This document shows, piece by piece, positions 33,052-36,150 of a DNA stretch of 64,000 nucleotides. This DNA comes from Bosea vaviloviae (GTDB lineage: Bacteria > Pseudomonadota > Alphaproteobacteria > Rhizobiales > Beijerinckiaceae), in contig NZ_CP017147.1 in assembly GCF_001741865.1 (NCBI RefSeq), forward strand, positions 4,579,001 through 4,643,000, given 5' to 3'. The notes beneath the pieces were generated by a model, which was not told the origin of the DNA, searched no databases, and saw nothing but the letters and a program-made list of their open reading frames with translations. Position numbers and translations under genes: made by a program. Numbering within the stretch: the first letter of the stretch is position 1; each line of letters begins with the position of its first letter.

Positions 33052-33103
33052 GAGCATTGCGCGAAAAAGTGGGCACCGGTTTTTCGCAAGAGCAATGCTC
33101 TAA
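33052..33103. repeat. TAGAGC-type repeat, copy C (short form)
   Basis: Begins TAGAGCATTGCGCGAAAAAG and ends AAGAGCAATGCTCTA, so the two ends are inverted repeats of each other. The centre has GGGCACCGGTTTTTCGC, a variant of the GTGGACACCGGTTCGCG core in copies D and E. Confidence 0.75.
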
Positions 33104-33115
33104 ATTTTTAGAATC

Positions 33116-33159
33116 GATCACGTCGCATTCGGACGGTCCCGTCCGAATGCGACGTGATC
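33116..33159. repeat. Perfect 44-base inverted repeat (21-bp arms, 2-base centre)
   Basis: Arms at 33116-33136 and 33139-33159 are exact reverse complements, starting GATCACGTCGCATTCGG. As RNA this would be a very stable hairpin eleven bases before the LacI start codon; as DNA it could extrude a cruciform. It directly follows repeat copy C and may be its second half. Confidence 0.85.
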
Positions 33160-33170
33160 TAGGGACGATC

Positions 33171-34187
33171 ATGGACGAACGGCTGCGCAAACCGAGGATC
33201 GACGACGTCGCCAGACGGGCGGGCGTCTCGACCGCCACTGTGAGCCGCGCCCTCGCCACCCCCGACCAGGTGAAGCCGAAAACGCGCGAAGCCGTGGAAA
33301 AGGCGGTGCTCGAGACGGGCTACGTCCTCAATGTTGCGGCCCGCAATCTGCGCACCAACCGCACCCATGCCGTGCTCGCCGTCGTTCCCGACGTCGCCAA
33401 CATCTTCTTCTCGCAGGTGCTGCGCGGCATCTCCGACACCTTGCACCAGCATGGCTACAGGCTGGTGATCGCCGATACCGGCAACGATCCCGAGCGCGAG
33501 CGCGACCATGCCGAATTCGCCCAGGCCGGCTGGGTCGATGGCCTGCTGCTGCTGAACGGGCGCCTACTGCCAGCCCCGGAGGGAGGGCGCCGCCGCCTGG
33601 CCGTGCCGACGGTCAGCCTGTGCGAGCGCATTCCGGGCTCCGACATCCCCTATGTCGAGACCGCGAACCGCGAGGCGGCGCGAGCGATGACGGAGCGCCT
33701 GCTGCAATTGGGACATCGCCGCATCGGCTATGTCTCCGGCCCGCCCAACAACATCCTGGAGCATGACCGTTTCGCCGGCTACCAGGATGCGCTGGCGGCG
33801 CGGGGCCTCGCACCTGACCCCACGCTGGTGCGCCCGGGCGACTATACGCTCGCCATGGGCGAAGCCGCCGCGACCGCTTATCTGGCGCTTGCCGAGCTTC
33901 CCGATGCGGTCTTCGCCAGCAACGACGCCATGGCGATGGGCTTGATCCGGGGCTTTACCGCCGCCGGCCTCTCGGTGCCGGAGGCGATCTCGATCGCCGG
34001 CTTCGACGACATCGAGTTCGCCGGCGCCTACAACCCGGCTCTCACCACCGTGCACCAGGCCCGCAGCGAGATCGGCGCGCGCGCGACCACGATGCTCATC
34101 GATCTGATCGAGGGTCGTCAGCTTGCAAGCCGCGAGGTCCATCTGCCGGCCGAGATCGTCATGAGGGACAGCACGCGCGAGCGCTGA
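33171..34187 (+). CDS. LacI-family transcriptional regulator
   Basis: A 338-residue sugar-responsive repressor. The N-terminal HTH and hinge are RIDDVARRAGVSTATVSRAL (residues 8-27) and the hinge helix NVAARNLRTNRTHAV. The periplasmic-binding-like effector domain follows (VVPDVANIFFSQVLRGI, GFDDIEFAGAYNPALTTV). ATG 33171 gives a standard N-terminus; the open frame continues upstream only through the inverted repeat. Divergent from the eight-gene sugar operon, which it most likely controls. Confidence 0.9.
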   Translation: MDERLRKPRIDDVARRAGVSTATVSRALATPDQVKPKTREAVEKAVLETGYVLNVAARNLRTNRTHAVLAVVPDVANIFFSQVLRGISDTLHQHGYRLVIADTGNDPERERDHAEFAQAGWVDGLLLLNGRLLPAPEGGRRRLAVPTVSLCERIPGSDIPYVETANREAARAMTERLLQLGHRRIGYVSGPPNNILEHDRFAGYQDALAARGLAPDPTLVRPGDYTLAMGEAAATAYLALAELPDAVFASNDAMAMGLIRGFTAAGLSVPEAISIAGFDDIEFAGAYNPALTTVHQARSEIGARATTMLIDLIEGRQLASREVHLPAEIVMRDSTRER

Positions 34188-34206
34188 GCCAAGCTAGAGC
34201 CCGGAC

Positions 34207-34305
34207 TCATAACCAGTAACTGACGGTTGCAGCGATGCGGACGGCGGCGAGGAAGTTGACAGCGTTTCGGTCGTATCGCGTGGCGACGCGGCGGAAGTTG
34301 TTGGA
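34207..34305 (-). pseudogene. IS5-family transposase, C-terminal fragment
   Basis: Reads NNFRRVATRYDRNAVNFLAA and ends in VSYWL-stop, the conserved RRxATRYDR...F..A...AATV.WL tail of IS5/IS427-group transposases. Only about 32 codons remain before homology stops. Confidence 0.75.
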
Positions 34306-34391
34306 TCCCGGGCCTGCACGGCTTCCCAGCCGGGACTGCCCGCTGTCGGGCTTGGCCCGGCATCGTGAATAAGGCTCCTCCTTCAATCCTG

Positions 34392-34907
34392 TCAGAGCTT
34401 CAACCGGCTCACCAGCGGCGGGTTATCGGCGCGGGGCACGATGAACCACAGATTGTTGAACTCGCTGCGACCGATTTCCACGGGCGCCGCGTGTCCCAGC
34501 GCCGCGAGCAATTTTGGAATGGTGTCGGAATGAGCGACCACGAGGACGACCTCACCCGCATGCTCCGTGCTCAGCCTGGCGGCAAGACCAGCCAGGTCGT
34601 CCTTCTGAATGACGCGAATATCCCGCCCCACAGCTTGCGCCAACGGCTCCACAGTTTGCCGGGCGCGCGTATACTGGGAGGAATAGATCGCCGCAATTCC
34701 GGCATCCTTCAGCAGGGATGAGAGTTGATCAGCCCGCCGCTGGCCATGCTCGTTGAGCGGCGGATCACCTTCCATCATTCCGCCCGTGGGCGTCTGCTCT
34801 GCGTGCCTCAGTAGGAGGATCGCCTGTTGCGCAGACCCTTCCAGAGGGGCGAGAGCGATGCTCGCCGTGAGAACCACGAGTCCGAACCACAGGCGTGACA
34901 ACCGCAT
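34392..34907 (-). CDS. Secreted histidine-phosphatase (phosphoglycerate mutase-like) protein
   Basis: A 171-residue histidine phosphatase. A signal peptide (LWFGLVVLTASIALAPLEGSAQ) is likely cut near residue 27, so it should act in the periplasm or outside the cell. LLLRHAEQT (near 31) holds the phospho-accepting His of the RHG/RHE motif; YSSQYTRARQTVEPLA (near 75) the conserved Arg; VLVVAHSDTIPKLL (near 122) the second active-site His. AGGAGG lies close before the start at 34907. It sits between the two halves of an IS5-type transposase gene. Substrate unknown: phosphoesters or phytate-like compounds are possible. Confidence 0.83.
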   Translation of the reverse strand: MRLSRLWFGLVVLTASIALAPLEGSAQQAILLLRHAEQTPTGGMMEGDPPLNEHGQRRADQLSSLLKDAGIAAIYSSQYTRARQTVEPLAQAVGRDIRVIQKDDLAGLAARLSTEHAGEVVLVVAHSDTIPKLLAALGHAAPVEIGRSEFNNLWFIVPRADNPPLVSRLKL

Positions 34908-35095
34908 TCCAGCCTCCTCGTTCGCAAAAAGCCTCGGGGGCTATCCCCTGCGGGTGAGAATACCTGAAAGGCGGACAAGTAAAAAGCTGCTGGCTGCCCC
35001 ACGAGGCCGTCAACGCGCAACAGGCGGCTTCCCGTTTTTCTTGATGAAGGCCGCCGTGATCGCAGCAAGCCGCTTGTGCCTCGCGCAACCTCATC
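34908..35095. other. Spacer inside the IS-derived cassette
   Basis: Contains the histidine-phosphatase promoter region. A short minus-strand frame ending AAFIKKNGKPPVAR-stop (about 35038-35075) reads like a gene 3' end but is too short to identify. No transposase-like sequence is left here. Confidence 0.35.
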
Positions 35096-35170
35096 ACGCG
35101 TGTCCGTCGGCAAATGCGGCTCGATCCGCGCGAATTGCGCGTCCGTGAGCCAGAAACGATCCCGATTCAT
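35096..35170 (-). pseudogene. IS5-family transposase, N-terminal fragment
   Basis: Begins with ATG and reads MNRDRFWLTDAQFARIEPHL followed by PTDTR, the standard N-terminus of IS427-group transposases, then diverges. It belongs with the C-terminal fragment at 34207-34305. Confidence 0.8.
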
Positions 35171-35343
35171 CCGTGCTTCCTCCCGGAAGCCGTGAATCAC
35201 ACCGGGGAGGCGAAGCCAACCACTTAATGGGTCTGAGCCCTAAGCAGATTCCGGAAAAGTGTCCCACAGTTTCCCGACGAGAATCTGCGACGAATCAAAG
35301 ACCTAAGCAGAATATTCGTTGGCGTGCCAAGGAAGGTTCTGCT

Positions 35344-35402
35344 TAGAGCGTTTTCGAGCGAAGTGGACACCGGTTCGCGTGAAGAAAACGCGATAAAACA
35401 AA
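35344..35402. repeat. TAGAGC-type repeat, copy D
   Basis: TAGAGCGTTTTCGAGCGAAG, then GTGGACACCGGTTCGCGTGA, then AGAAAACGCGATAAAACAA. It is the clearest 59-base form of the family; copy E is its near-identical reverse complement and the right half of copy A is a variant. The preceding bases 35243-35343 have partly repeated AAGCAGA/TCTGCTTAG motifs but no gene. Confidence 0.8.
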
Positions 35403-35403
35403 C

Positions 35404-36150
35404 CTAAAGCGCAAGATCCAGGACCCGCCCCTCGAACAGGCGGTCATAGGAGCCCTTGATGTGCATGCGCATCGCATCCCGCGCCGCCTCGGCGTCGCGG
35501 GCGCCGATCGCCGCGAAGATGCGCGCATGCTCGTCCAGCACGCCGGCAAGGCCCCCCGCCGGCCCGAGCAGCGAAAGCCCATGCAGCTTCATGCCGACAT
35601 TGATGTGGTCTTTCAGCGCCTGCATCGACGACAGGAAGAAGTAGTTGTTCGCCGCCTCCGCGATGGCGATGTGGAAGGCGTAGTCGGCATCCTCGCGATG
35701 GCGATGCGCATGGGTGGTGTCGCGCAACAGCTCGAAGGCGCTGCCGATAGCCGCCAGCGCTGCCGGATTATGGCGCTTGGCGGCATAGAAGGCATTGGCC
35801 GGCTCGACCTCGAGCCGGAACTCGTAGCAGCGCTGCACATCCGCGATGGTGCCAACCGGCGCGAAGGCCAGCACCCTGCCCTGCTCCGCCTCGGTCCCGC
35901 GCACGAAGGTGCCCGCGCCCTGGCGGGAAAAGATCAGCCCATCCTCGCGCAGACGGCGCAGCGCCTCGCGCACCACCGGCCGCGACACGCCGTAGATCGC
36001 CGACAGATCGTGCTCGCCGGGCAGCCGCGAATGGCTGGCGTACTCGCCCGAGGCGATGCGGGCGCGCAATTGATGATGCACGCGCTGCACCAATGGCGAG
36101 GGCGGAATGGCGTCCCCGGAACGCACTGGCTTGCCTGAGGTCTGATCCAT
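35404..36150 (-). CDS. FadR-subfamily GntR transcriptional regulator (FCD domain)
   Basis: A 248-residue regulator. The winged HTH reads LVQRVHHQLRARIASGEYAS ... DLSAIYGVSRPVVREALRRL (residues 20-68). The C-terminal FCD all-helical ligand domain (RCYEFRLEVEPANAFYAA, HIAIAEAANNYFF, DEHARIFAAIGARD) has the Asp and His residues that bind a metal and an acidic ligand. FCD members answer to sugar acids and other carboxylates. It is divergent from the HpaI-DUF1537-PdxA2 operon and most likely represses it. Confidence 0.9.
   Translation of the reverse strand: MDQTSGKPVRSGDAIPPSPLVQRVHHQLRARIASGEYASHSRLPGEHDLSAIYGVSRPVVREALRRLREDGLIFSRQGAGTFVRGTEAEQGRVLAFAPVGTIADVQRCYEFRLEVEPANAFYAAKRHNPAALAAIGSAFELLRDTTHAHRHREDADYAFHIAIAEAANNYFFLSSMQALKDHINVGMKLHGLSLLGPAGGLAGVLDEHARIFAAIGARDAEAARDAMRMHIKGSYDRLFEGRVLDLAL

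Follow-up and report, generated by a model that had tools for sequence, protein, structure and literature searches.

A histidine phosphatase gene in place of the interior of an IS427-type insertion sequence: a possible mobile insertion cassette

We found that positions 34197-35240 of the window (the whole stretch of 64,000 nt that was analysed, G000:C1:4579001-4643000 of a 6.7-Mb genome) hold, at a TA site, an insertion sequence of IS427 type whose interior has been swapped for DNA bearing a histidine phosphatase gene. This two-ended unit of 1044 bp lies between a LacI-type regulator gene (33057-34187, plus strand) and a GntR-type regulator gene (35404-36150, minus strand), both names being read from the ORFs. 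It is a real, well-delimited IS-derived structure with a selected cargo, and as an example of a kind already known it is a modest one. Its parts and its target are the following, with the evidence in brackets:

34195..34196, no strand: left copy of the putative TA target duplication (window sequence)
34197..34298, plus strand: left IS end, 102 bp, with the terminal repeat and the last 29 transposase codons, the latter on the minus strand (comparison with a full IS)
34299..35094, no strand: passenger segment, 796 bp, in place of about 590 bp of IS interior (left junction common to a second genome, G015)
34392..34907, minus strand: predicted histidine phosphatase gene of branch 1, 171 aa (ORF and PF00300)
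35095..35240, minus strand: right IS end, 146 bp, with the first 25 codons of orfA, the leader and the terminal repeat (comparison with a full IS)
35241..35242, no strand: right copy of the putative TA target duplication, formed by the TA in the CTAAGCAG that terminates a 106-bp repeat (window sequence)
35241..35346, plus strand: 106-bp MITE-like repeat, the target of the insertion and itself outside the unit (the genome has three full copies)

The unit was delimited by comparison with a full IS in its own genome (838 bp, L007 2297-3134, TA on both sides). The left end of this IS matches 34194-34296 (91%, 103 bp) and its right end matches 35097-35243 (90%, 147 bp), both in the correct order and orientation relative to the full IS; when the IS copy of another genome (G048) serves as reference, the right-end match begins at 35095. 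Laid flush, the terminal repeats of the unit are identical at 11 of 16 positions, and 18 of 20,000 random window pairs 1 kb apart do as well; we regard the homology of both ends to the full IS as the stronger evidence for the unit. An earlier note made from the sequence had described imperfect terminal inverted repeats about 1.05 kb apart, which agrees with both observations, and had placed the N-terminal 25 codons of a transposase inside one end, where we find them as MNRDRFWLTDAQFARIEPHLPTDTR in the right end. Two of its details had to be corrected: the C-terminal transposase piece in the left end, FRRVATRYDRNAVNFLAAVRIAATVSYWL, comprises 29 codons and not 32, and the element ends at 35240 and not at 35242, positions 35241-35242 being the TA duplication. 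There is no transposase body within the unit, which holds these leftovers of 25 and 29 codons and an intact phosphatase ORF instead. The possibility that the two transposase pieces come from unrelated elements, on which the earlier note would have given up its cassette reading, was not borne out, the same IS type being found on each side; two copies of one IS may each have contributed a piece.

In the full IS, orfA (PF13340) and orfB (PF13586, PF01609) are both open, and a AAAAGGGGGG run is present. Judged by its length, its 2-bp duplication, the orfA/orfB arrangement with a frameshift run and the predicted DDE transposase, it belongs to the IS427 group of the IS5 family, for which an excerpt of PMC3281130 gives lengths of 832-865 bp, a 2-bp repeat in nearly all elements and a frameshift motif. 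It is alike to elements of this group such as IS1248 and ISPpa6 of Paracoccus in having 838 bp, TA, two ORFs and a frameshift-type run, whereas the unit differs from them by its passenger and the loss of the transposase body. A full IS with matching ends, which the earlier note had proposed to look for, is thus present in the own genome, where it is a candidate source of transposase for the unit. A solo right end of this parent IS is located at L007 6001-6090, about 2.9 kb from the full copy and with several genes in between.

The passenger ORF matches PF00300 (E 2.2e-18, 67.1 bits), an AGGAGG stands five bases ahead of its ATG, and the protein start MRLSRLWFGLVVLTASIALAPLEGSA looks by eye like a signal peptide, in line with the complete, signal-peptide-bearing histidine phosphatase with its own AGGAGG that had been proposed for this position. 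The phosphatase is probably exported and would act in the periplasm. Residues R34, H35, E37 and H126 are invariant in a five-row alignment (A2) that leaves out the rows L046 and L066, the latter of which had the wrong strand/frame. An AlphaFold2 model built from five sequences (mean pLDDT 75.9) resembles the histidine phosphatase folds of MutT1, RosC, SixA and PGAM5 in the PDB. From its RHxE motif, second catalytic histidine and predicted alpha/beta fold we assign the passenger to branch 1 of the histidine phosphatase superfamily, with whose members SixA, PmrG/Ais, CobC, PhoE and the C-terminal domain of MutT1 it has motif, fold and catalytic residues in common. Unlike these named members, it is a protein for which no NCBIfam model attains its cut-off, and its identity to the PDB matches is 11-24% among the matches listed. 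The G+C content of the gene is 62.8% compared with 65.6% for the window, and since 115 of 635 window stretches of equal size are as low, its composition does not mark it as foreign. A promoter scan gave no sigma-70-like site upstream of the gene, the sole plus-strand match falling inside it.

A one-ended copy is present in a second genome of the genus (G015, contig C20), where the window sequence is matched colinearly through left IS end and passenger (94% over 893 columns) and the left IS/passenger junction is the same. The G015 sequence diverges after the base equivalent to 35094, exactly where the right IS piece of the window starts, and no right IS end was seen in this copy. It adjoins a cluster starting with a cyclopropane-fatty-acid synthase gene (read from the ORF); this synthase gene also occurs in a further genome (G038), where a different gene comes next and no phosphatase is found. 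Out of 11 kb of G015 flank just four short weak stretches match the genome of the window, from which we conclude that the two loci differ. As the same junction is found at different loci, the fusion of left end and phosphatase is older than both known copies. Since the G015 contig is a draft and begins within a repeat, a rearrangement of its structure is conceivable.

We compared the two copies by coding sequence and by left end. The coding sequences are 96.1% identical, 17 codons being changed and 5 amino acids different (dN 0.019, dS 0.105, dN/dS about 0.18), while the left ends are 87.7% identical, close to the synonymous rate; the phosphatase gene is thus conserved and the IS end is not. 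At the level of these codon changes, purifying selection on the predicted phosphatase is shown. Among the ends listed, the left terminus of the window unit has an A as second base that occurs in none of the other left ends compared, and two bases of the unit's right terminus recur in hardly any other right end. The left terminus of G015 starts like that of the G019 IS. The nearest neighbour of the G015 left end is this G019 IS (0.076), that of the window left end L002 and G048 (0.112 each), and the window right end is nearest to the G048 IS (92.5%). In a left-end tree of 102 columns and 17 rows without a starred branch, the two units were never sisters in 200 bootstrap trees, and constraining them as sisters costs 6.63 log units (p-AU 0.039) in a test picked after the rows had been seen. 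Quartets on the left ends unite the units in 21 of 105 cases, separate them in 60 and tie in 24. These left-end comparisons faintly hint at an exchange of one left end with a different IS copy.

The insertion site of the unit is the outermost TA of the 106-bp repeat, which has the ends CTAAGCAGA/TCTGCTTAG and an additional internal CTAAGCAGA; the other two full genomic copies of the repeat start CTAAGCAGATTCC and have no unit. Two of the three full copies adjoin a short palindromic repeat that is matched in most genus genomes in a scan of 67. Both flanks of the unit were matched in 3 of 67 genus genomes: the repeat located at about 35345 in the window directly adjoins the end of the regulator gene in G001 and G032, and in G008 another short insert lies between the two. 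At this locus the unit and the 106-bp repeat are both absent from G001, G008 and G032, and because the empty locus of these relatives is also without the repeat, the single-TA state has to be taken from the other copies of the 106-bp repeat. The empty site with a single TA that the earlier note had anticipated was therefore seen in part: the locus without the unit is present in the three relatives, but the single TA only in the other repeat copies. The same note would have counted a phosphatase gene standing at this locus without IS ends against a cassette; none was found, the three relatives having no phosphatase there.

Copies of the same two-ended unit at other loci, which the earlier note had suggested, were not found in the own genome, 67 genus genomes and 397 order genomes, in scans that score few candidates per genome, the genus scan listing matches to a cut-off. 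Passenger DNA occurs in 2 of the 67 genus genomes (the own genome and G015) among the matches listed, and in the own genome only among the matches listed for the 397 order genomes, G015 not being among them. A protein search of 101 genomes gave matches in 7, with 97-100% identity in the own genome and G015 and 32-37% in the others. Further distant relatives of the phosphatase outside these two genomes were found in four genome-contig loci (29-35%), in 2 of the 397 order genomes (35% and 37%) and in 7 of 72,556 plasmid records (28-37%), and none was found in viral contigs, nor was there a match in phage DNA. The unit as a whole matched 32 plasmid records, none across more than 80% of its length, and the best 20 of 32 match IS ends only.

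Several pairs of IS ends were considered as further cassettes and rejected. An end pair 2.1 kb apart in G019 (L042 1146-3246) is a full IS interrupted by an IS3-type element (type read from the ORFs), and a 437-bp end pair in G131 (L069, about 1220-1658) is a MITE-like internal-deletion derivative; neither has a passenger. The two-ended copies in G048, G004, G035, G057, G077, G085 and G151 align to the full IS, some of them over part of its length, and contain no foreign insert. The right end of the G019 IS copy (L042) is joined to an apparent part of the IS481-type element that also borders the G015 copy on its left.

Our preferred explanation, to which we give a little less than even confidence, is that the two-ended form of the window arose in place from a phosphatase fragment linked to a left end and a resident IS. 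The starting point would be a fragment with left end and phosphatase as in G015, which would pair with the resident IS copy via the common left end and then undergo illegitimate joining to the inner side of the right end of that copy, the transposase being lost thereby; the gene would have been retained for its predicted phosphatase function and not for mobility. If G015 represents the donor-like state, the common left junction and the unshared right junction would both result from one event, and colinearity ending at the start of the right IS piece is what is expected if G015 there runs into its own flank, while TA would be found on both sides because of the resident IS itself. Such an assembly in place is favoured by the same left junction in two genomes with different loci and flanks, and by left ends that are not sisters, with left and right ends of the window unit both near the G048 IS. 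Against it, the homologous anchor is short (about 100 bp at about 88% identity), no microhomology was seen at the right junction of the window unit, sister strains having a plain IS at the insertion site are not known, and the argument from the left-end tree rests on 102 columns and that from G015 on a draft contig that might be rearranged. According to an excerpt of PMC3240628, homology-facilitated illegitimate recombination of this form has been described in three naturally competent species and also, at a low frequency, during conjugation of E. coli. The transposase of the resident IS might still move the assembled unit in trans, though its termini have drifted.

A true mobile insertion cassette, which an IS427-type transposase supplied in trans would have carried into the TA of the 106-bp repeat and which would have decayed in G015 by loss of the right end, is possible, but we think it clearly less than an even prospect. 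In its favour, both ends are present in the right orientation and flanked by TA, the passenger occurs in two species at different loci, and the own genome has a full IS with open orfA, AAAAGGGGGG and open orfB as candidate transposase source. However, there is one two-ended copy only in the own, genus and order genomes scanned, the right end of G015 would need to have been lost from the exact base of the passenger/IS junction, and the termini of the unit carry substitutions present in almost no other ends listed. The fuller proposal of an IS427-group cassette with a periplasmic phosphatase as sole cargo, moved in trans between species of the genus and seen in G015 and the window at stages of its making or decay, appears doubtful to us. 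Since the two-ended form is known from one place only, we do not class the unit as an established mobile insertion cassette (MIC); the earlier note's reading as such holds for the IS ends, the absence of a transposase, the passenger, the TA on both sides and the related full IS, but not for a second two-ended copy.

The remnant of a composite transposon, in which two IS copies around the phosphatase lost their inner parts and left their outer ends, we judge improbable. It would account for the outer IS end kept on each side, and solo ends of the parent IS do exist, as at L007 6001-6090, but it requires two deletions, G015 has one end only, and a composite in intact or half-intact form was found neither in the own genome nor in the 67 genus and 397 order genomes scanned. 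That two IS fragments and a gene are neighbours by chance and never formed a unit is very improbable indeed: solo IS ends occur in the own genome, but order, orientation, TA on both sides and the same IS type on each side speak against it, as do the left junction common to G015 and the absence of everything from the locus in three relatives.

The unit resembles MIC231 of Bacillus cereus and mic-qnrD of the Proteeae in its IS-type ends, its passenger in place of a transposase and its short putative target duplication. Unlike MIC231, it has an IS427-type frame and not that of IS231, a member of the IS4 family, its cargo is a histidine phosphatase, and one two-ended copy is known. In excerpts of PMC3913671, PMC3281130 and PMC3129680, MICs are IS ends that enclose a passenger and no transposase; the first of these excerpts describes mic-qnrD with imperfect repeats, a 2-bp duplication and no transposase, and reports that the IS231A transposase can mobilise MIC231 in trans (PMC3913671). 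Judged as mic-qnrD was, by repeats, a 2-bp duplication and the lack of a transposase, the unit would count as a MIC, but it does not when a second two-ended copy is asked for. Transporter ISs, described in an excerpt of PMC3129680 as IS copies carrying a gene unrelated to transposition, are similar to the unit in this respect but add genes, while the unit has lost its transposase. Our literature searches, which covered few subscription papers, returned no title on an IS427- or IS5-type cassette with a phosphatase. IS ends around a selected host-type gene offer a small route for the spread of single genes without plasmids or resistance markers. The same fusion of one end and a gene stands at two loci in two species, one-ended in G015 and two-ended in the window, and with more strains sequenced the making of a cassette could be traced step by step.

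Some minor observations concern the left side of the G015 copy. Its contig begins with 20 bases that form the end of an element located at five further places in G015, which we take to be of IS481 type. A palindromic empty site, hinted at by flanks of the G015 unit that pair at 13 of 16 positions (as do 48 of 200,000 random pairs) and so resembled a restored target, was considered and rejected: the left flank is the end of this IS481-type element, and a pattern for such a site had no match in the 67 genus genomes. The last six bases of the passenger, CCTCAT, also occur in the IS481-type end to the left of the G015 unit (L037 1-6 and 912-917), either by chance or as the trace of an old junction.
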